Positions 18,849 to 30,474 of a DNA stretch of 64,000 nt are shown here, piece after piece. The stretch's first letter is position 1; each line of letters starts with the position of its first letter. A program made the translations under genes and the position numbers. Under the pieces are notes generated by a model, which was not told the origin of the DNA, ran no database searches, and was given only the letters and a program-made list of their open reading frames with translations. The stretch lies in assembly GCA_018662325.1 (NCBI GenBank), contig JABJGM010000007.1:1-64000 (forward strand). The letters are read 5' to 3'. The stretch is from a bacterium. Its GTDB lineage: Bacteria; Patescibacteriota; Gracilibacteria; UBA1369; GCA-2718715.

Positions 18849-18877
18849 AAAAAGCCCCAACTAAGGGGCTTTTTTTT
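18849..18877. terminator. bidirectional terminator
   Basis: AAAGCCCC / GGGGCTTT stem with loop AACTAA between convergent genes; T-run on the plus strand, A-run on the other side. Confidence 0.85.
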
Positions 18878-21800
18878 ATTGAACATTTATCAATACAGGA
18901 TCAGATACAAATTTATTAAGACTAGACCTAAGCAAAGTAGCAGGTAAATTAATTTGACCTTTAAAATTTGGTCTTAACTTTAATTCTATTTTTAAATCAC
19001 ATTCAAATCGAGAATCGCTTCGATAATAATATTTATTTAAATAAACATCAAAACGATCACCATGATTCATTATAAATTCTCCACAACTCCAGTCATTAGG
19101 CCAACTATTAATCAATTCAAAACCTGTTGGTGGAACCATTGAAAATTCAAAAGACGAGTTATCATTAAAAATCTCCTTTCTTAAACTATTAAAATCAAAA
19201 ATTAAATTATAAATACCATCTTCTAAGAGGTTAATCTTCGGGACAAATCTTTTTAGATTTGTGGTATCTAAATCTTGATAATTAGCTGAATAAACAATTA
19301 AATCTTGTCCTTCAAAATCAATAGAGAAATCTAAATCCTGCTGCTTATAAAGGTCAAACAAGACTTCACCATTTTCTGAAAACTCTGTAGAGTTTTCTCC
19401 ATTCAAACTATAATTCAATCTAAAATTACCAGAGTTTTTATTATAATTTTTAAGTAAATAAGCTTTTGCAAAATAATATAAATTATTGCCCTTAAATTTC
19501 TCTAAATCATCAAAGTAAAAAACTTTATGATTAGAAGCTAGTATAAAGTATAAAATTTTTGTCTTATCATCTAAAACACTAAAATCTTGTAAAAAATACT
19601 TAGCATCAAAAGTCTTATGACTAATAATTTCGTTTTTACTCTTGGATTGTCTAAAAGCCATATCGTAAAAAGCTGATAAGAAATCATTGTTTATTAATTT
19701 TGATGAATATTGGTTCCCCTTTATTCGAGATAAATCTAAATCCAAAACACTTAACAAATCGAAGTAATCAACTTTTACATAAGAATCCGAATAATAAGAA
19801 TCATAATTATAAATAATAGAGTTTAAATTTTGTATAGCAAAATTTTCCTCAAGATTAGATATATTAGATGTTTTAATCTCTTTAAAAAGATCTAAAGCAT
19901 TTAAATAAGCAAAGTTCCTAATTTTATTTTGAACAACTACCCTGTTTGAAGCGTTCTCAGAAATTTGTAGACCCTTTTTAAGAGGAGCTAATTCAGTTAA
20001 ATTTTGCTCTATAACATTTATTTTGGATTCATAGTAATCATTAGCCTTTTGGGATTCTGCACCTAGTAAATATTTAACTTCGCCTGCTTTATTGAAATCA
20101 TATTTAAACTGATTTTTAGAACCAGGATTTTCTATTATATATCTTTGATCATTTAATTCTATAAAAGCATTTTCTAAATTTTTTGATTCTTTTCCAAAAA
20201 CACCAAAATCCAGTAACAACTTATCTCCTTTATTGACTTTAGATGGGAAAAGTGGCTCTACAATCATATCTTTATTGGTAGAAACTTCATCATCTAAAAA
20301 ACCTGTCTTGAATGATTTTTTATCAAAAGCCGAAACAAATAACTTATAAGTAGTTATATCATCTGGAAGTACAAATTTTTCAGAAATTAAATTATCTTTA
20401 GGGAAAAAGGTCTTAAAAAAAGCGACATCTTTAAAGTTCTTTCTGATATCTTTTACCATCATAGCTTCACTTCCCTTCCCTTCATTGTGAACAAAGTAAC
20501 CATCAACTATATATGTATGAAAAGGACTAACAGTAAAATTATAAACTTTTATTGGATTTTCCAGAACAACATTTTCAACTTTTTCTACAAGAATTTCCTT
20601 TCCATCTTTAATCATCTTATCTCCAATTTCAACTAAATAAATTGATTTAAATTCACCATTCGAATAAACTTGATGATTAGGTGTAATTTTCAATTCATCA
20701 TTCACAATTAAATATTCCTTTACAAAAAACTCTTGTAAGCCTTGAATGATTGCTTTTTGCTCAATTCCAATTTTATCTTCAGAAAAAGTTAAAACAGAAT
20801 CTCCAACATTTACATCTTGAATATTTTTTAATGAACCATCACTCATTAAAATTTTACTATCCTCTAAGAAACATCCTCCTTTTCCACCAAAAGAACTACT
20901 TCTTCCAAAGAAATTTCCAAAATCAAATCTATATGATTTCCCAAATATTGAATCTGAAATATTAGTCTCGTAATCATATCTACCAAATAACTTTTTATCA
21001 ACCATTTTTACATTAACAAAAGTATCCTCTAAAGATTTATCTAATAATTCTAAATTCAATTCATATTCTTGAGCAGGAGAGAAAACTTTCTGAGAATTTA
21101 AATTCTTAATTTCAAAAAGATTTTCATGCTTTAAATAAGCATTATTGTGAATATAAAAATCTCCATCCTTATCAACTTCAATTACTCCTAAATCAAAGTT
21201 TGGAAGATGCTCTTTTTTAACTTTAATTACAAACTCATTTGTATCAATAAATTTAGAAGTGATTCCATTTACATCCTGCATCATTAAAATGTAACTTGAA
21301 TCCTCAGAAAAATCTTGAATTCCAAGAGTTATCTCACTTCCTAGTTTATAAGTAATTCTATTGGAATAACCTTGGTCTTGATTGATTTTCTCACCATCGA
21401 CATTAAGAACGTTTAAATTTTTGTAATAACCAGCTCTAAAATCACCTTCTTCAGAATAATTTAGCGTATTTAAATAAGTTTTTTTAATGCCATCTTCAAA
21501 ATAACTAACCTTAAATTTTAAATTTAAATAAGCAAAGTCTTCTAAATCTTCAGGATCTTCAAAAAGACTAAAACTCTCTTCAAACTTTCCACTATTGTCA
21601 GTCTTAATATCCTTAGAGGCTAAAACTATATCCTTAAGCCAATAACCTTCTTCAGTGTAATCAAAAAGCATTTGCGAATCCAAGGTACCATCTAAAAATT
21701 CTTGTCTAAAACCAATTAAATCGGATTTTTTGGGATACTTTTCTTTAACAAACTCATTGAAATCCTCTAAACTTTCACCTTTAAACTCATTATTAACTTC

Positions 21801-24011
21801 TTCTAAGTTTATTTCGATTACTTCAGCATTACTAGAATCAATTGTAACTGGATTTAAATGTTTAATTTTCTTATGAATAGTTTCTTGATCAAGAGGTTCT
21901 TTTTTTGAAATAAAAGATTGATTTTCATCAATAAATTCATCATTAAATCTTCCTGATAATAAAATTTCAACAGTTAAGTCTTGATTAGGGATAAGATCTC
22001 CCAAATTATCTTGGTCGCCTGGAATAACTTTATTTAAATTAAATCCATAATCAACTTGATTTGAATTAAAATATCCATTTTCAAAAAAGTTAACATCAAT
22101 CAATGTTAAATAATAATCTGCAGAGATATTTAAATAAGAATTAACACCTTTTTTATCTAAAGCCTTTAAATTTAAATAAACAGAATTAATAGGAGAATAT
22201 ATTCTACTATATAAACTGTAATCTGGTTGCGTCTTAAAAGTTTGTTCAAACTTTCCATTCTTATCAGTGACAAAAACTTCTGAACCTAATCTATCTTTAA
22301 AAATCATATTAGCATAAGAGGTATTCTCTACTTCCATATTAGACTTTTGGGATCCATTAAATAAATATGAAGAAAAATTAAGAGTAACATCTTCATACGG
22401 CAAATAAAAATCTTTATCAAATGAACCTTCTAATACAGTTTGAGCTTTATCAATCTTTAATAACTCAAGATATTTATGAGCAACTCTTTTACCATCCCAA
22501 AAGAAATTTAAATAAATATAATTTAAATTAGAATTTAAATTCTCAGGAATTTCCAGAGAAAAGTCACTTGATCCGTAGGTACTCAAATCTAAAGTTTGAC
22601 TACTTATATATCCATCCTTAGAGACTTCATTCGTCATATATTTCTCTGATAAATAAACATTCACTTTGTTATTTGCAAACTCTTTACTAAAGTCACCCAT
22701 TAAAAAATTACCACTGATAGTATCACCCAATTTATACTTTGGTTTGTCTAATGAAATATTTGAGTAAACACTCAAAGCAACAGCATTCTTATAAAAGCCA
22801 AGATATTCATTTACCAAAACATTTTGGTTGTTAATATTAAATTTCAAATCAACACCATCACCGGAATAAATAAGATTTTCAACATCAATTTTTAATAATT
22901 TACCTTTTGACTTTAACGAATCACCAAAGAGATTTACCTCGAAATCAATAAAATTATTATTATTAAAATCATATACATAGTACAAAAACTCACCATTTGA
23001 TTCAGCATAAAAAATATCATAATTAACTTTTTGAATATAAGTAAAATCAGAATTGTTTCTTAATAAATAATAACCATCATCAAGATTATCTAGATTTACA
23101 GATCTATCATTTAAAGAAAATTTTATCTGAGGATTAGCAATAGGACGTATTGTGTCTTTTTTTAATTTAGATTCAAAATCATATTTTTTATAACGAGACT
23201 GAGAAGAATAATCATCATAAAAATCTTGGAAATCATCAAAAGAATACAGTTTAAAATCAATATTTCTATAATCCTCTCTTCTTAAAGAATAAGAAATAGA
23301 ATTTTTATTATCATTTAAAATATTTAACTTAGAAAACCTATTATTAAAACTTCTATCTGAAGAAATATTTTTTCTTAAAACGATACTTTTTGTATAGTTA
23401 AATTTCTTAAAAAAACCCGGCTTTAAAGTAATTTTATAATCAACATCATCCCAATTTTCAGTATTAAATAAAATATACCCAGGACCATCAACATCAACAT
23501 CTAAATCAACATTTGGTTGTACACTAATAAAACTTTTGTAATCATTTGATATATCATGATTAAAAAAAACGTCAATAAAATTAGACTCTGGAGAATCTTC
23601 AACTCTAAAATCAAAATAATTTGGATTTTCAACATAAAGAGAAAAACCATTAATCTCAAAACTTAAAAAGTCTTGTGAATAGTCATTAGAACTCAAAACT
23701 TCAATTAAATGATTAGTAGATTTTAAACTTTCAACAATCTCAGATTCTACTAACTGAAAATCTACTTGTTTAGAATCAACAGCATTTCCAGCTAGAGTAA
23801 CATTTGGATTATCAAAAGGAGAAAGGAAATAAAATTTATCATCTTTTGACTCTATAAAAATAGGACTAGTCAAAGTGACAACATCCGAAATTTCTAAATT
23901 TGATTGATCACCCAAATCAAACAAAAAATGATTAGTAAAATTAATTATAGGGCTTCTGAACAAAAAACCAAACCCTAAAAATATAAATAAAACAAGAATA
24001 AACTTCTTCAT
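18876..24011 (-). CDS. alpha-2-macroglobulin-family protein with Hint/intein-like insertion (1711 aa)
   Basis: A secreted or membrane-anchored macroglobulin. Residues 1-20 are a signal/anchor helix. Beta-rich macroglobulin domains follow to about residue 1040. Residues 1047-1176 are a Hint domain. Directly after it, 'IRKNFKDVAFF' and 'FVLPDDITTYKLFVSAF' (about 1188-1230) match the MG7/A2M domain. Residues about 1330-1560 correspond to the helical thioester domain, but no CxEQ motif is present, so no thioester should form. The C-terminus ('SMVPPTGFELIN') resembles the last MG domain. Macroglobulins trap proteases after cleavage of a bait region. The insertion sits exactly at that position, between glycine-rich flanks. 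Single gene, closed by a terminator. Confidence 0.85.
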   Translation of the reverse strand: MKKFILVLFIFLGFGFLFRSPIINFTNHFLFDLGDQSNLEISDVVTLTSPIFIESKDDKFYFLSPFDNPNVTLAGNAVDSKQVDFQLVESEIVESLKSTNHLIEVLSSNDYSQDFLSFEINGFSLYVENPNYFDFRVEDSPESNFIDVFFNHDISNDYKSFISVQPNVDLDVDVDGPGYILFNTENWDDVDYKITLKPGFFKKFNYTKSIVLRKNISSDRSFNNRFSKLNILNDNKNSISYSLRREDYRNIDFKLYSFDDFQDFYDDYSSQSRYKKYDFESKLKKDTIRPIANPQIKFSLNDRSVNLDNLDDGYYLLRNNSDFTYIQKVNYDIFYAESNGEFLYYVYDFNNNNFIDFEVNLFGDSLKSKGKLLKIDVENLIYSGDGVDLKFNINNQNVLVNEYLGFYKNAVALSVYSNISLDKPKYKLGDTISGNFLMGDFSKEFANNKVNVYLSEKYMTNEVSKDGYISSQTLDLSTYGSSDFSLEIPENLNSNLNYIYLNFFWDGKRVAHKYLELLKIDKAQTVLEGSFDKDFYLPYEDVTLNFSSYLFNGSQKSNMEVENTSYANMIFKDRLGSEVFVTDKNGKFEQTFKTQPDYSLYSRIYSPINSVYLNLKALDKKGVNSYLNISADYYLTLIDVNFFENGYFNSNQVDYGFNLNKVIPGDQDNLGDLIPNQDLTVEILLSGRFNDEFIDENQSFISKKEPLDQETIHKKIKHLNPVTIDSSNAEVIEINLEEVNNEFKGESLEDFNEFVKEKYPKKSDLIGFRQEFLDGTLDSQMLFDYTEEGYWLKDIVLASKDIKTDNSGKFEESFSLFEDPEDLEDFAYLNLKFKVSYFEDGIKKTYLNTLNYSEEGDFRAGYYKNLNVLNVDGEKINQDQGYSNRITYKLGSEITLGIQDFSEDSSYILMMQDVNGITSKFIDTNEFVIKVKKEHLPNFDLGVIEVDKDGDFYIHNNAYLKHENLFEIKNLNSQKVFSPAQEYELNLELLDKSLEDTFVNVKMVDKKLFGRYDYETNISDSIFGKSYRFDFGNFFGRSSSFGGKGGCFLEDSKILMSDGSLKNIQDVNVGDSVLTFSEDKIGIEQKAIIQGLQEFFVKEYLIVNDELKITPNHQVYSNGEFKSIYLVEIGDKMIKDGKEILVEKVENVVLENPIKVYNFTVSPFHTYIVDGYFVHNEGKGSEAMMVKDIRKNFKDVAFFKTFFPKDNLISEKFVLPDDITTYKLFVSAFDKKSFKTGFLDDEVSTNKDMIVEPLFPSKVNKGDKLLLDFGVFGKESKNLENAFIELNDQRYIIENPGSKNQFKYDFNKAGEVKYLLGAESQKANDYYESKINVIEQNLTELAPLKKGLQISENASNRVVVQNKIRNFAYLNALDLFKEIKTSNISNLEENFAIQNLNSIIYNYDSYYSDSYVKVDYFDLLSVLDLDLSRIKGNQYSSKLINNDFLSAFYDMAFRQSKSKNEIISHKTFDAKYFLQDFSVLDDKTKILYFILASNHKVFYFDDLEKFKGNNLYYFAKAYLLKNYNKNSGNFRLNYSLNGENSTEFSENGEVLFDLYKQQDLDFSIDFEGQDLIVYSANYQDLDTTNLKRFVPKINLLEDGIYNLIFDFNSLRKEIFNDNSSFEFSMVPPTGFELINSWPNDWSCGEFIMNHGDRFDVYLNKYYYRSDSRFECDLKIELKLRPNFKGQINLPATLLRSSLNKFVSDPVLINVQ
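20484..20873 (-). other. Hint domain (bacterial intein-like), 130 codons inside the macroglobulin
   Basis: Residues 1047-1176 of the host protein. Block A starts at Cys1047 ('CFLEDSKILMSDGSLKNI'), with 'VNVGDSVLTF'; block B is 'LKITPNHQVY' with the TxxH motif; block F is 'VYNFTVSPFHTYIVDG'; block G ends 'YFVHN'. No homing endonuclease fits in 130 residues. The residue after His-Asn is Glu, not Cys/Ser/Thr, so standard protein splicing is not possible; this matches bacterial intein-like (BIL) domains, which cleave instead of splice. Flanks are Gly/Lys/Ser-rich ('SFGGKGG' before, 'EGKGSEA' after). Confidence 0.88.
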
Positions 24012-24168: not shown

Positions 24169-25722
24169 CTAGAATTTAGATATAATATCTTGTGCATAAT
24201 CAACCAAAGAAGAAAATTCTTCGTCAATAATTTCTACATATTCATAAAATTCATCATTGGTAAAAGAAATTTCAACATTAACTATTCTAGGATCTGCAAA
24301 AGACTCTAAATCTTGCATTAGTAAATATTCATTCTTAACTGAATTGAATTGTTTTAATAAATCTCTTCTCCACATAAAAACCTTAATATTATTTTGAAAA
24401 CTAGCAGCTAGTATTTCGGCATTCAAGTTAGTTAATTTATCAAGCAAGTATTGTTTTCTTTCAATTACATAGTTCATCTTTCTCAACAAAAGTTCTTTTT
24501 GTATTTCAATTTGTTCTTTAGCTTTTTCTTCAGATTCAACCGCACACAACTCAAGTTGTTTAGCGAGTTTCAAATCTTGAACTTTTTGATTTTCCAATTC
24601 TGAATTAGCTTTAAGTTCTGCAACTCTTTGCCGTTCTATTTGTAAACGAGATTCTTCAATCTCTCTTTTCTTTGCCTTAGCCAATTCTCTTTCAGCTTTC
24701 CTAACTTTTTTAATTTCTAAAGCACGAGCTTTTTGAAAGTCCTTTCGAGATTGCTCTAAAGAAGGAATAACATCAGAGAACACAACAACATCTGAGTCAT
24801 CTGATAAAAAAGTCTCAAAAGTAGTATTCAAATCATGATTAAATCGCTCAAAGACTTGAGTGACGATTAACTTATCAGCATCATTCGTTGCAAAAGAACC
24901 ATAAAGATTTCCAAAATGAATTGACAATACATTAGCCATTTTAATACCTAGTGCAACAGGACAATAATTTCTATGCTCTTTTATAGATTTAAGAGAAAAT
25001 GATCCTTGAAAAGCATGGTCACAATCCAGAGCGTGTCTATAAGTTATAAGTGGTAAATCTAAAAAAGAAACCGTATTACAATCAACCGAAGCTGAAATAT
25101 CATCACTCATTAGTCGGGTATCTGTAATATTAATAGAACTCGGAATATTCACTGATATTTGTTCGATAAATCCACCATTCAAACAATCTTCAAGAATAGC
25201 AGAAATACTAACTAAATTAGGGATTGACCTTTCTAAAACATAACCAAAATTATTAATGGGTTCAGCAATAAGTTCCCTACCTTCTTTATCTTCAAAGAAT
25301 TGCGACAATGACCTCATGTGAGAATCATGCATAGAACCATCCAAAAAAGATAAACATTGCTTTAAGCTTCTTTCATAATTATCAACCGAAAAAACAAAAC
25401 TATCTTGATAATCTACATGTTGGAAAAAATGATCAAAAGTAATTGACTTCAAGAAACCGTCAGTTAAAATTGATAACAATAAAATACTACAGAAAAAAGG
25501 GGGCATGCCTTTGTTAATCAATTCGTTCTGACTAGCATTTTTAAAATTATACGCTAAATGTAAGCCAGCATTCTGAAGTTGATAATGAAACAAGTCCAAA
25601 TAAGTATCAACACTAGAATCAGGAAGAGTAACAACTTCAGAAGAAATTAATTTTAGATTAACATCCTCGCCTATTGGCCTTAATGGGATTGGTAGATATT
25701 TATTCGAATTATCTATAGACAT
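24169..25722 (-). CDS. hypothetical coiled-coil protein, 517 aa
   Basis: No family recognised. The ATG giving 'MSIDNSNKYLPIPLRP' is chosen: a longer GTG start at 25764 lies between the -35 and -10 of a good promoter. Residues about 1-330 look globular with many Asp, Ser and several Cys. Residues about 335-460 are a long charged Lys/Glu/Arg/Ala-rich coiled coil ('KKVRKAERELAKAKKREIEE'), and the last 90 residues are acidic and helical. No signal peptide or membrane helix, so probably cytoplasmic. It sits between the TIM-barrel reading frame and the macroglobulin gene but has its own promoter. Function unknown. Confidence 0.7.
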   Translation of the reverse strand: MSIDNSNKYLPIPLRPIGEDVNLKLISSEVVTLPDSSVDTYLDLFHYQLQNAGLHLAYNFKNASQNELINKGMPPFFCSILLLSILTDGFLKSITFDHFFQHVDYQDSFVFSVDNYERSLKQCLSFLDGSMHDSHMRSLSQFFEDKEGRELIAEPINNFGYVLERSIPNLVSISAILEDCLNGGFIEQISVNIPSSINITDTRLMSDDISASVDCNTVSFLDLPLITYRHALDCDHAFQGSFSLKSIKEHRNYCPVALGIKMANVLSIHFGNLYGSFATNDADKLIVTQVFERFNHDLNTTFETFLSDDSDVVVFSDVIPSLEQSRKDFQKARALEIKKVRKAERELAKAKKREIEESRLQIERQRVAELKANSELENQKVQDLKLAKQLELCAVESEEKAKEQIEIQKELLLRKMNYVIERKQYLLDKLTNLNAEILAASFQNNIKVFMWRRDLLKQFNSVKNEYLLMQDLESFADPRIVNVEISFTNDEFYEYVEIIDEEFSSLVDYAQDIISKF

Positions 25723-25745
25723 AATATTTTTTTTAAAGTAACACA

Positions 25746-25773
25746 ACTTTACACCAGAAAACACCTATGTCAA
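25746..25773 (-). promoter_or_regulatory. promoter of the coiled-coil protein gene
   Basis: Minus strand TTGACA, 16-base spacer, TAAAGT; 23 bases to the ATG at 25722. It excludes the longer GTG start. Confidence 0.6.
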
Positions 25774-25842: not shown

Positions 25843-26625
25843 TTAAATTTGTAGCAGGTTTAAATAAGGATGCAAATAATGCACAGCCGTCCCTCGATAA
25901 AGATCCTGATCCTCAAAATGTACATCAAGTAAATCAACCAAAGCATGCAAGGCAGCTCTTCCCTCTTCAAAGAAAGTTATTTTATCAGGCTCTATCTCTT
26001 GAGTCTCTAGCGCTAAATAAAACGGCTTATTAAGGTTAATTAAAATAGCTACACTGTTATTAATAAAACTCAAAATTCCATCATTCCCTTCAAAAGTATC
26101 CCTGTAACTCATTAGTAAGATTTCATCAACTATATTTGAAACAGCATGCAACAAAGTTGCATTCTCGTATTCAAATATAGAATAAAAAATTGGAACATCT
26201 AAAATCAAATTTACATCATATGGAGCAATTACTTCCTTAAACTCTTGTAAATTACCTAAAAAATTTTCAATTATTCCAGGCTGCAAACTTTCATCATCCC
26301 ATTGATCAATAATGTAAGGCTCATAATCAAGCATCCAGTCTATATCTTGAGCCCATGGATTTTCTGCTAAGAAATCGGCAACTTCTTCAAGCAAAGCATC
26401 CCAATCATCTTGATTTTCATCAAGAGCATATGAAGCAGCACTAAGTAAAAATTGATAAGATTGACAATCACTTCTGTAAGCAAAATCTTCTTCTGTTAAA
26501 TCACCAGTCCAACGAACAAAATATTCTTCAAAGTCACTGTTAAAAATCTCATCAATCAAAATTTGATTTGGAGGAGATTCCCGCCAGGCAAAAACACTTC
26601 CAGAGTAATCATCGCACTCAGCACT
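25843..26625 (-). CDS. TIM-barrel glycosidase-like domain, in frame after a TGA with no ATG start
   Basis: A 260-codon open frame directly continues the frame of the upstream surface protein after its TGA (26626-26628). The only possible start is a TTG at 26559, but protein-like sequence begins before it ('DDYSGSVFAWRESPPNQ'). Motifs read like the alternating strands of a TIM barrel: 'VFAWRE', 'DWMLDYEPY' (acidic residues at a strand end, as in glycosidase active sites), 'LILDVPIFYS', 'ILLMSYRDT', 'FYLALETQEI' with 'ITFFEEG', and 'GTAVHYLHPY'. I recall this pattern from glycosidase-like proteins of unassigned substrate. It is probably the C-terminal enzymatic domain of the 1282-residue protein, separated by a nonsense codon or expressed by readthrough. 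Confidence 0.6.
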   Translation of the reverse strand, partial: SAECDDYSGSVFAWRESPPNQILIDEIFNSDFEEYFVRWTGDLTEEDFAYRSDCQSYQFLLSAASYALDENQDDWDALLEEVADFLAENPWAQDIDWMLDYEPYIIDQWDDESLQPGIIENFLGNLQEFKEVIAPYDVNLILDVPIFYSIFEYENATLLHAVSNIVDEILLMSYRDTFEGNDGILSFINNSVAILINLNKPFYLALETQEIEPDKITFFEEGRAALHALVDLLDVHFEDQDLYRGTAVHYLHPYLNLLQI

Positions 26626-29600
26626 TCATGGAGCCGGTACAGGTGTTACTCCTGCAATATTTACACCAGTAACATTAATCGTACCATCAATCTTATAATT
26701 TGAATTAACAGTAATTGTAAAAGATTGATTAACTACCGTAAAAGGATTAGCAAGATCTGCAGGATCAGCAATTCTTTTAACAAATAGCTCAGCATCTAAA
26801 TCATCAGCTGTAAAAGCAAAGTCTAATTCAAAAGTAGTATCACCATTTTGATCTGCAAAACAAATTGGATCATCATTATCACTAGAATCCAAATCTAAAC
26901 AATATTGATATTCCGGACTAACAAAACTTGCGTTCGAAACAAAAGATAAACTTAAATTCAAATCAGAATCCAATAGAGGTTCAGCAGATAAAATAATATC
27001 ACCAATCTTTTCAAATGAATCAATATCAATGTTATTTACAGTAGCACCTGGGTCTGGAGTATAAGTGAATTCTAAACTAGAATCCTCAAAAGTAACATTT
27101 GATGTAATTGAATCTCCAACACTAACACCATCAGCTTCCACAGAATAATTAACAGCATAATTTTCACCATTTGCATCAGTATCTAATGTTTTAATATAAA
27201 CTTCAATTGGAAGTGTCAAATCAAAAGGATTATGAGCTGGAAAAACAGAATACGTTGATTCATCAGGAATGTTGATGGCGTTAAAGTTGTCACCCTGCTT
27301 TAAAACAATAGATCTTAAAGGTTGATCTTCACCTATTTCTAACTTTAAAACATCACCACCATTACTAGCATCATATAAAGCATCATTGATTAAAATTTTA
27401 CCTAAAAATTCTTCACCTGGAGCATCAAATAAGTAAGCATTAGCAGCTAATGGAGAAGCAATTCTATTATTTGTTTCATCTACAAAAGAAATAATTGGGT
27501 TTAATGATGCAGAAAACATTCTACTATTAACAGAATTAAAATCATCAAGAGAAAGACTTTCATCTTCAGGTGTAGCTTCATCATCAGCAACAATAGTAAT
27601 TTCTAAATCAGCATTGGTAATTAGTTCAATTGCCTCAATTTCTAAACTATCTTCAACCAAATCGATATCAGCAGCGGGTTTAAATTGCATTACAAGTGGA
27701 TACATAAAGTTATCCATGTTAGCAGTTTTTAACGATGGGTTAAAATAATACTCATCAGAGTCAGCCAAAAGCGAACTAGCTAATGAATATAAGTTTGAAC
27801 CTTCAATTTTATTTAAAGCAATATCGTTTTGATCATCTGGTAAATCTAAATAGATAGAATCAACAATATCTGATGATTCATCAGTTAAACTCACTAGTAG
27901 TTCATATACTTCAACATCCTCATTATATTCGCCTTCAAGATCTAAAAGAATAATTTGTCTATCCTGATTTAAAGTATCTAAATCAACATAACCTAAAACA
28001 TTCGAAGTATCATAAGAAGTTAAATTAGTCTCAGAATCTGAAATTCTAACCTCAACAGCTTCTGGTAACTCAACACCAGCAACAATAGTTGTTAAATCAT
28101 ATAAAGCTTCATCCAGTCCATTTTTAAATGAAATTGAACTAGTTAGCATATTCCCATCAATTTCCACATCTGAATACTCAACTAAATTGTTAGTTTCAAC
28201 CGGTAAATCCCCTACCTTATTAACAAAACTTAAAGCTGTTACAGTATCAGCTGGAATAACAGAGTCAGGAGAATCAATATCGTAAAAGAAAGTCAAATAA
28301 TCAACAGACTTAGAAGATAAATTTCTAATACTTTTAGTTGTAAGATTAAATTCAGTATTACTTAAAATATCAAATCCTATTAAAGGTGTAGTAATAAAGT
28401 TAACAAGTTTAGTTACCGTTCCAGCAAATGGACTCATCACATCAACACTTGAGTAAGCATAGGCATGTGTAGCTCCATTAGCTTCAAAAGAAGTAGCTTT
28501 TTGAATTCGAGTATTAATTTGATTAACTGAAGAATCTAAATATAAATCAATCAAAACATCACTCGAATCAACCGGAGGGTTATCAAGAGAAATCGCATGA
28601 AAATCTATTGTTAAAGTTTGAGTATCAAAATTGTTCAACCTAACCGCACGTTTAATGGCATCTAAAGTTTTAAAATTAATTTTAGATTCAAAACCCGTAG
28701 CTGTTAATTCCATTGGAACAGAAACTTGCGTAGTTTGTCCATCTGCATAAATTTTAGCAGACATCGAGCTAAACCATTCATCAGCATTTACAAGTTGACC
28801 TTTAATTGCATACAAGTTTAAAGAATCTCTAGTTAAATCATCTAAATCTTGATTAACACCTAAATCAGCGTCAGGTAATAAGTTGGCAACTTGATTTAAA
28901 TTTATTTCATAAGATCCAATTTTTCTTTCTTGATCATCACCACCAAGGGAAACTAAGAATCGATTTGGATTACTAACGTTACTAGATTTAGTAATATAAT
29001 TTATTGTTGAGTTACCACTTATAGCAATTGGCTCTGGATAAGCATCCATACTTGCTAGTACAGTTGGACTTAATGGAGCATCCACTAAAGCAGGTTTAAG
29101 TGAAACATAAACATACAAAGATTTACCATCTAAAGTATTATCTAAAGTTAAATCATCAAAATCTAAATTTGAAGTTATATACTCGCCTATTCGTGTATCA
29201 TCTAAATAAACTAAAGCTTTGTCTAAATAGTCCTCTAGTCCATTTAAATCTAATTTACTTAAAGTTGAAGTACCCGTAACTGCATCAAATTTAAAATCAA
29301 TAATTTTTACAAAATCGTTATTTGAAACTAATTCGTTATCAGCTCCAATCAAAGAACCTAAAGTATCGTTTCCAGATTGTGCTTGTTCAACACCATTTGC
29401 TACAAAAGTCTTATTTTCATTCGATAAATAATTATAAGCTTGCCCTTGCTCTATTGAATTATTTGTATAATCAAAACTAAATTCTACCGGCTGATCCCCT
29501 CCAGTATTTCCACTTGTGTTTCCACCAGTGTTAGATCCTGATCCACAAACATCCGAAGGTCCAAAAGTACCTTGGGAGTTTGCCACTGAAGAGCATCCCA

Positions 29601-30474
29601 TAGTTTGACCACCAGTAGTTGCACTTGAATTATTAGTTGATCCATTACCTTGGGAACCAGAAGTTGATCCTCCATTCATTGGATCTGAAGAATTTCTAGT
29701 AAAATCAACTTTAAACCAATAGTAACCATCATGAGCTAAACCATTTGTAGCATCTAAAGTGACAGAAGTTGGAGAAAAGAAATAAGAAGCCGCATAAGCT
29801 TTTGTAATTCTTCCATCCTTAAATCCTTGCGGAGCAGGAGCTAAATACCAACCAATATTTAAACCAGAAGATTGTCTAAAAGTAGGGTTATCAAATGATC
29901 TATTACAAACATCATTTCTATTTAAAGATTGAACTACAAACACAGTTCCAGCTTTTATAGTAGAGTTTAAATTATCTCTTTGAGTTCCTTCATAATAATC
30001 CGATAAATACTCTACAAATTTATAAGGAGAAGCAAAGCTTCCTGGTAAAGTTTCATCGTAACCAACTATAATATAATTTGAGTTGTCTTTTTTAATTGAA
30101 GCTAGAGCGTTATTTAAAGTAGTGTCATTGTTAACATGAAATAAAAAATAATGACCACTATCAACATTAGGAGTTATTGCTCCCATAGTTTGAGTTGTTC
30201 CATCCGAACAAGAATAGCTTGGTAAATCCGAATTAGTAACTGTTGCAAGCGCCCCAGTTAAATCTGAACTTTCGATTGGACTTGGCGGAACATTAAATTT
30301 TTCCAGCTCACGCTCAGCCATATCATCAAATGATGCGTATAAGCCTGCAGCAATCAAAAGCACCAAAAGCCCACCTAAAAGGTAAGCTTTGGAAACATTA
30401 TTTTTATTCTTAGATTTTTTAGCTTTACTTTTCAAGAAATTTCTCCCTCCAAGTAAATTCATTAATTTTTTCAT
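26626..30474 (-). CDS. giant membrane-anchored surface protein, 1282 aa, ends in TGA
   Basis: A basic cytoplasmic segment (about residues 1-28) precedes one membrane helix ('AYLLGGLLVLLIAAGLYA'), then 'VPPSPIESSDLTGAL', the hallmark of the surface family. An ectodomain ending in 'GYYWFKVDF' (about residue 260) matches the paralogs, followed by a Ser/Gly/Asn/Thr linker with a Cys pair ('MGCSSVANS...DVCGSG') and about 900 residues of beta-rich modules with acidic, Val/Leu/Asp-rich sequence. The protein ends with a Pro-rich 'GVTPVPAP' and TGA, one of only two TGA stops in the window; the frame then runs on into a TIM-barrel domain. Own promoter at 30500-30528. Likely displayed on the cell surface; function unknown. 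Confidence 0.8.
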   Translation of the reverse strand: MKKLMNLLGGRNFLKSKAKKSKNKNNVSKAYLLGGLLVLLIAAGLYASFDDMAERELEKFNVPPSPIESSDLTGALATVTNSDLPSYSCSDGTTQTMGAITPNVDSGHYFLFHVNNDTTLNNALASIKKDNSNYIIVGYDETLPGSFASPYKFVEYLSDYYEGTQRDNLNSTIKAGTVFVVQSLNRNDVCNRSFDNPTFRQSSGLNIGWYLAPAPQGFKDGRITKAYAASYFFSPTSVTLDATNGLAHDGYYWFKVDFTRNSSDPMNGGSTSGSQGNGSTNNSSATTGGQTMGCSSVANSQGTFGPSDVCGSGSNTGGNTSGNTGGDQPVEFSFDYTNNSIEQGQAYNYLSNENKTFVANGVEQAQSGNDTLGSLIGADNELVSNNDFVKIIDFKFDAVTGTSTLSKLDLNGLEDYLDKALVYLDDTRIGEYITSNLDFDDLTLDNTLDGKSLYVYVSLKPALVDAPLSPTVLASMDAYPEPIAISGNSTINYITKSSNVSNPNRFLVSLGGDDQERKIGSYEINLNQVANLLPDADLGVNQDLDDLTRDSLNLYAIKGQLVNADEWFSSMSAKIYADGQTTQVSVPMELTATGFESKINFKTLDAIKRAVRLNNFDTQTLTIDFHAISLDNPPVDSSDVLIDLYLDSSVNQINTRIQKATSFEANGATHAYAYSSVDVMSPFAGTVTKLVNFITTPLIGFDILSNTEFNLTTKSIRNLSSKSVDYLTFFYDIDSPDSVIPADTVTALSFVNKVGDLPVETNNLVEYSDVEIDGNMLTSSISFKNGLDEALYDLTTIVAGVELPEAVEVRISDSETNLTSYDTSNVLGYVDLDTLNQDRQIILLDLEGEYNEDVEVYELLVSLTDESSDIVDSIYLDLPDDQNDIALNKIEGSNLYSLASSLLADSDEYYFNPSLKTANMDNFMYPLVMQFKPAADIDLVEDSLEIEAIELITNADLEITIVADDEATPEDESLSLDDFNSVNSRMFSASLNPIISFVDETNNRIASPLAANAYLFDAPGEEFLGKILINDALYDASNGGDVLKLEIGEDQPLRSIVLKQGDNFNAINIPDESTYSVFPAHNPFDLTLPIEVYIKTLDTDANGENYAVNYSVEADGVSVGDSITSNVTFEDSSLEFTYTPDPGATVNNIDIDSFEKIGDIILSAEPLLDSDLNLSLSFVSNASFVSPEYQYCLDLDSSDNDDPICFADQNGDTTFELDFAFTADDLDAELFVKRIADPADLANPFTVVNQSFTITVNSNYKIDGTINVTGVNIAGVTPVPAP

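Follow-up and report, generated by a model that had tools for sequence, protein, structure and literature searches.

In the 64,000-nucleotide stretch of contig JABJGM010000007.1 analyzed here (hereafter the window), a gene of the alpha-2-macroglobulin (A2M) family carries a Hint domain of 130 residues at the site of the protease bait. This Hint-A2M architecture is real and conserved and, within the searchable literature, appears unreported: Hint domains and A2Ms are each known, and it is their union at the bait site that is new. A search of the CC-licensed PMC literature found no paper linking a macroglobulin with a Hint or bacterial intein-like (BIL) domain. Judged by sequence and predicted structure, the domain is a type-A BIL domain with intact catalytic residues, and it splits the bait-carrying MG domain into two halves.

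The Hint domain and its position

The Pfam model PT-HINT matches the domain with an E-value of 3.2e-12 (47.3 bits against a cut-off of 27.7), and a Hint profile built from relatives gave a match of E = 2.4e-44 in the source genome. The closest solved sequence is the BIL domain 2LWY of C. thermocellum (E = 6.5e-9 with the single sequence, 1.1e-18 by profile). AlphaFold predicts the Hint domain with a confidence score (pLDDT) of about 95, and the best fold matches in Foldseek are Tetrahymena BIL2 (target-normalized TM-score, TMt, 0.78–0.83) and 2LWY (TMt 0.85, root-mean-square deviation 1.9). The initial annotation had placed a Hint domain at 20484–20873, from Cys1047 to His-Asn1176, followed by a glutamate; the coordinates proved exact, profile searches and fold agree on Hint/BIL, and the residue after Asn1176 is Glu1177. 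The gene and the features around the insertion are the following, in window positions:

18876..24011, minus strand: A2M-family gene with inserted Hint domain, 1711 aa (open reading frame; matches to PF00207 and PT-HINT)
20985..21131, minus strand: first half of the bait-carrying MG6, about residues 961–1009 (AlphaFold blocks with pLDDT 80–95; the A2M_BRD match of relatives ends just before the Hint domain)
20874..20888, minus strand: N-side flank GGKGG, residues 1042–1046, flexible (Gly at -1 and -2 conserved; linker of low pLDDT)
20484..20873, minus strand: Hint/BIL domain, 130 residues, Cys1047–Asn1176 (PT-HINT; sequence and fold match to 2LWY)
20871..20873, minus strand: Cys1, Cys1047, the block A nucleophile (invariant in all relatives read)
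20673..20684, minus strand: block B T-x-x-H, Thr1110–His1113 (Thr and His unchanged throughout two alignments, of 26 and 53 rows)
20484..20492, minus strand: C-terminal VHN, residues 1174–1176, with the block G His-Asn (invariant; Asn1176 at 20484–20486)
20469..20483, minus strand: C-side flank EGKGS, residues 1177–1181, with Glu at +1 and Lys at +3 (Lys at +1 to +3 in relatives)
20277..20447, minus strand: second half of MG6, about residues 1189–1245 (model; profile alignment to human A2M and C5)
20010..20264, minus strand: MG7, about residues 1250–1334 (AlphaFold; Foldseek matches to C3, C5 and A2ML1)

Type-A BIL domains are described in reviews as ending in His-Asn and usually lacking a nucleophile at +1 (PMC4031507, PMC5874633). 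Every type-A sequence feature tested was found in the window protein: the Hint fold, Cys1, TxxH, the HN end and the absence of Cys, Ser or Thr at +1. A class-1 (canonical) intein was rejected, since Glu1177 at +1 is not a nucleophile and there is no homing endonuclease, the 130 residues being fully accounted for by the Hint fold; such an endonuclease is common in class-1 inteins, not obligatory. A Hedgehog-type Hint (Hog) needs a C-terminal site and a sterol-recognition region, whereas this domain is internal, with the second half of MG6 about 12 residues further on. Chance or artefact is excluded by the profile E-values, the conservation and the recurrence of the arrangement.

The window protein has the MG domains of the A2M family, with A2M PF00207 (E = 3.4e-6, above the cut-off) directly after the bait-region Hint domain. 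Better-conserved relatives show the order A2M_BRD, Hint, PF00207, TED and bMG10; in one of them (L140) A2M_BRD, TED and bMG10 score above the Pfam cut-off. The AlphaFold model, which covers residues 932–1361 and used an input alignment of 52 natural relatives, predicts MG domains well on either side of the Hint domain and poorly ordered linkers (pLDDT <50) at both junctions. The folds around the insertion match C3, C5, A2ML1, A2M and ECAM in Foldseek. By profile, the stretch after the Hint domain aligns with residues 721–814 of human A2M, 764–847 of C5 (chain numbering) and E. coli ECAM from about 953. The human A2M bait lies at about 690–728 and the C5 anaphylatoxin extends to about 751, subject to chain-numbering offsets against this alignment. 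The bait region of ECAM is a disordered stretch of 20 residues (923–942) (PMC4498604). The domain had at first been described as lying at the bait position just before MG7; the bait site holds, but the model puts the Hint inside MG6 (MG8 in bacterial numbering) rather than simply ahead of MG7.

Occurrence, history and thioester state

Within the order of the source genome, where the named relatives are Peregrinibacteria, we counted 23 Hint-bearing A2Ms. The check proposed in the initial annotation, whether the insertion is fixed in related genomes, is thus positive, although A2Ms without the Hint domain occur there too. In other orders of the same class, the matches listed contain the A2M part or the Hint alone, never both. 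Scanning GTDB genomes yielded further cases in Uhr-, Collier-, Magasanik-, Kerfeld-, Dojka-, Woese-, Moran- and Amesbacteria, WWE3 and others, as well as one WOR-1 and one record labelled Micavibrio; the Hint-A2Ms read belong mostly to candidate-phyla bacteria. The Micavibrio-labelled record (L142, on a 388 kb contig) is a thioester-bearing Hint-A2M that lies outside the candidate phyla by label. Its nearest relative is from Moranbacteria and its neighbours do not settle the matter; the contig may be mislabelled or misbinned. Of 380 genomes sampled evenly across the phylum, 48 contained an A2M and 18 a strong Hint match. Because all 18 strong matches lie inside A2Ms at this site, the Hint clade is, in this phylum, essentially an A2M domain.

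Two further groups of Hint matches were observed. Family f52 has a much more divergent Hint at the same bait site (L268 in genome G353, with a broken copy, L270, in G370) and an ECF sigma gene close by; this is possibly a separate insertion. Viral contigs (28 loci, L240–L267) hold Hint matches of ~33–38% identity, none of which extends into the A2M part of the query.

The pattern of substitution shows that the Hint domain is maintained under purifying selection. In the closest pair (G049 and G004), its nonsynonymous divergence (dN) is 0.020 and its synonymous divergence (dS) 0.35, a dN/dS of about 0.06. The window protein and that of G003 form the most divergent pair; their Hint domains are 57% identical, against 41–44% for the host protein. 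Of six pairs, four show a Hint no less conserved than its host, and in the others the two are about equal. In the Hint tree, every A2M Hint placed except L268 of f52 falls into a single group, apart from other Hints, with moderate support (84/87), and L268 is a separate long branch; a single clade of all A2M Hints is not rejected (p-AU 0.54). An A2M tree built without the Hint columns needs at least seven changes of Hint state and at least three of thioester state. One-time insertion followed by simple descent is thereby rejected. Taking the two trees together, the Hint may have arisen once at this site and then spread and been lost, or it may have entered a favoured site repeatedly.

Thioester state was scored as presence of the CxEQ motif in a set of 104 rows, which includes the 61 Hint-A2Ms of the tree and in which L143 was counted as positive (FCTEQ). 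Twelve Hint-A2Ms have CxEQ and 49 do not; among Hint-less A2Ms the numbers are 14 and 29. The general rule that the Hint replaces a lost thioester was rejected, as both Hint/thioester combinations are common in this set. Six of the CxEQ-less Hint-A2Ms have Cys1 as their sole cysteine. The window protein itself has no CxEQ thioester and is thus not of type I; because it lacks this motif and has only three cysteines (1047, 1643 and 1671), it looks like a type II A2M. One of these, MagD, needs no thioester to trap a protease, and its halves remain together after the cut (PMC5764988).

Fate of the bait loop

The residues bordering the insertion were compared in 62 A2Ms in which the Hint at this site has an intact C-terminus. 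After the terminal Asn, position +1 holds D, E, Q, A, N, G, V or K, and Cys, Ser or Thr in none of the 62. A lysine occurs at +1 to +3 in 62/62 (at +2 in 51, +3 in 10 and +1 in one), for an overall lysine frequency of 7%. Upstream, Gly occupies -1 in 59 and -2 in 57, and Lys stands at -3 in 25/62 only, in contrast to the universal downstream lysine. The corresponding position of Hint-less A2Ms holds a loop, for instance GAEKGGGGG or GMKGGGGG, and this bears out the suggestion of the initial annotation that the flanks are the remains of a split bait loop. When the Hint is removed, the remaining loop has a median length of 22, against 17–19 in 12 of 18 Hint-less, thioester-less relatives. Hint-less A2Ms with and without thioester, among them L058–L072, L077 and L158–L162, share a conserved Lys-Gly loop, (E)KGGGGG, at the bait site. 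In L122, L125 and L127, direct repeats at the protein level (AEKGG^AEKGG) frame the Hint like a duplicated target loop, the nucleotide repeats being partial, and in L083, L133 and L135 EKGG stands on both sides. In Hints of other proteins in the phylum, a lysine at +1 is frequent, not constant. The downstream lysine may in part be ancestral loop sequence.

Our preferred interpretation, tentative and at somewhat less than an even chance, is that the Hint actively processes itself and so nicks the bait loop of this extracytoplasmic A2M, with a cleaved protein as its main product. The Gly1046–Cys1047 bond would shift to a thioester (N-S acyl shift) and Asn1176 would cyclize. The main product would be a nicked A2M of two chains (about 121.5 and 62.4 kDa) that remain associated, while the Hint, of 14.9 kDa, is either set free or stays attached to one of them. 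Self-nicking, rather than cutting by a protease, would then be what changes the A2M. A nicked protein is expected as the main result because Cys, Ser and Thr are missing at +1, and reviews report that BIL domains without a +1 nucleophile mostly cleave (PMC7664689, PMC4031507). The catalytic residues are invariant in all complete cases read, and both Hint junctions have flexible flanks (pLDDT <50), which supports this interpretation as well. In ECAM, cutting of the bait untethers a segment and exposes the thioester (PMC4498604). Autocleavage in the window protein could not fire such a classical thioester trap, because it has no CxEQ; its role would most likely be that of a pre-nicked type II protease trap or a surface sensor.

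Three points weigh against nicking as the main outcome. If cleavage were constitutive, the thioester of the 12 Hint-A2Ms that have one would be fired or lost, and so wasted; these members would need ligation or a gated Hint, and some Hints are gated by Zn, redox state or pH. The invariant lysine after the Asn, together with the loop restored by exact removal of the Hint, favours ligation. The AlphaFold model speaks to the fold and gives no view of catalytic geometry. The initial annotation had gone further, ruling out normal splicing and expecting self-cleavage. Class-1 splicing is indeed excluded, but the statement is too strong, as type-A BIL domains can splice without a +1 nucleophile by aminolysis (PMC4031507).

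Ligation is the main rival, which we consider unlikely and yet a serious contender: the Hint would excise itself and the halves would be joined, by attack of the freed alpha-amine on the N-side thioester or through an isopeptide bond with a flanking lysine, giving an uninterrupted A2M whose Gly-Lys bait loop is restored. Besides the possibility of nucleophile-free splicing, it draws on the lysine found downstream in all 62 proteins, mostly at +2 and far above its general frequency, on the Gly-Gly donor, on the lengths of the Hint-removed loops and on the need of thioester-bearing members for an uncut loop. Precedent comes from Tetrahymena BIL2, among the best fold matches, which joins its flanks through a lysine isopeptide bond and can also hand its donor to foreign proteins (PMC8616854). 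Against this, the BIL domains tested mostly cleave, the lysine may be partly ancestral, as many Hint-less loops read KGG, and its frequency at +1 in other Hints of the phylum makes it not specific to A2Ms. The donor transfer by BIL2 lends itself to another proposal, to which we give a low probability, that a lysine of another protein or an amine of a cell surface attacks the Hint thioester, which would tie the N-half to a target as a substitute for the thioester missing from the TED. The reactive C-terminus that binds a target, suggested in the initial annotation, is likewise a possible outcome. The 49 of 61 Hint-A2Ms without CxEQ, and the six with Cys1 alone, would fit such covalent capture; the Hint does not track thioester loss, however, as 12 Hint-A2Ms keep CxEQ and 29 A2Ms lack both, and no target is known.

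An idle Hint, serving as a large exposed bait or spacer cut by proteases in the Gly/Lys linkers, appears equally improbable. The linkers are flexible and contain lysine, and A2M bait loops vary freely, but catalytic positions that stay invariant across highly diverged Hints would be needless in a spacer. A selfish mini-intein remnant on its way out would account for the patchy spread, the seven state changes on the A2M tree and the restoration of the loop by exact removal; with no homing endonuclease, a +1 nucleophile absent everywhere and strong purifying selection, we regard it as the least probable of these explanations. Finally, the family may hold a second covalent A2M chemistry, in which a thioester-making domain in the bait loop passes the N-half via its Gly-Gly end to a lysine, either the invariant flanking one, giving an isopeptide-joined A2M, or one on an attacker, and sigma-linked members report the event to the cell; we think this unlikely, though worth stating.

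Sigma-linked relatives, gene neighbourhood and known systems

Among loci whose upstream DNA is long enough, 21/52 Hint-A2Ms (2/11 + 19/41) and 13/40 Hint-less A2Ms (6/14 + 7/26) have a match to an ECF sigma profile in the gene just upstream. The spacing is almost always -13 to +34 bp, with one case at 423, and five of the sigma genes were confirmed by Pfam. These genes often overlap the A2M gene; examples are L140 3589–4131, L149 3648–4169, L101 3345–3983, L118 3262–3828 and L109 3361–3912, among others. Sigma-linked A2Ms also occur in Peptococcaceae (L159, L167). Because they have a segment that looks cytoplasmic and one membrane helix at the N-terminus, sigma-linked A2Ms with and without the Hint are probably membrane anti-sigma partners or sensors; no anti-sigma model of Pfam or NCBIfam matched them. 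In those relatives, a nicked A2M would form the outer part of a membrane signalling protein. The window gene has neither an adjoining ECF sigma gene nor a cytoplasmic N-terminal segment and does not qualify as such a partner. Sigma linkage as a property of the Hint was rejected, as Hint-less A2Ms have it too and the window gene does not; it is a clue to the family and not to the window member.

The N-terminus of the window protein, without a cytoplasmic extension, consists of one further feature:

23937..24011, minus strand: N-terminal hydrophobic segment, residues 1–25, membrane anchor or signal (hydropathy >1.6)

The gene is the only A2M in the source genome (0.98 Mb, 14 contigs). The A2M of the closest relative, G003, belongs to the same family and is 44% identical; its gene is split over two contig ends, L089 (contig 9) and L090 (contig 6), each half matching the window protein. 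In Pfam scans, the genes flanking the window A2M were Fpg, a YceI-like lipoprotein and unknown open reading frames. Three of the latter lie upstream on the same strand (24169–25764, 25843–26559 and 26626–30474, minus strand) and had no Pfam match; one, of 1282 aa, has the appearance of a surface protein. Rfam gave no match.

A2Ms and complement act upon a bait cut by an outside protease; Hint-A2Ms, if the interpretation is true, would arm, nick or relink themselves. The natural roles of BIL domains are largely unknown; the architecture supplies a defined host protein and a defined site for such domains. It makes testable the choice between cleavage and ligation, the role of the invariant lysine and a bait-processing signal through the linked sigma factors, and bears on the surface biology of candidate-phyla bacteria, which are mostly attached to other cells.

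Among known systems, the type-A BIL domains, represented by 2LWY, share with the window Hint the fold (TMt 0.85), C1, TxxH, the HN end, the lack of a +1 nucleophile and a length of ~130 residues. They are known from variable regions of non-conserved bacterial proteins (PMC5874633, PMC7765530), whereas here the domain is fixed at a single homologous site within a single family. BIL2 of the Tetrahymena polyubiquitin BUBL1 (6Y75/6TMM) is alike in fold, Gly-rich donor and acceptor-side lysine; it differs in being eukaryotic, in lying between ubiquitin-like domains and in its demonstrated isopeptide chemistry, which for Hint-A2Ms is a proposal. Bacterial A2Ms of type I (E. coli YfhM/ECAM, Salmonella A2M) and type II (Pseudomonas MagD) have the MG order, bait site and TED in common with Hint-A2Ms. 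The thioester-bearing Hint-A2Ms match ECAM best, and the window protein, without CxEQ, is type II-like. The bait of known bacterial A2Ms is a disordered loop cut by proteases, in contrast to the folded, predicted self-processing domain at the bait site of Hint-A2Ms. Complement C3, C4 and C5 carry a folded anaphylatoxin at the same site of the same MG domain, which is freed by an outside protease and does not cut itself. For the sigma-linked relatives, a comparison is offered by RsgI and the SEAL-domain autoproteolytic anti-sigma factors, whose extracytoplasmic part cuts itself, according to works cited in PMC12203970; their fold and chemistry are unrelated, and the window gene has no sigma neighbour.
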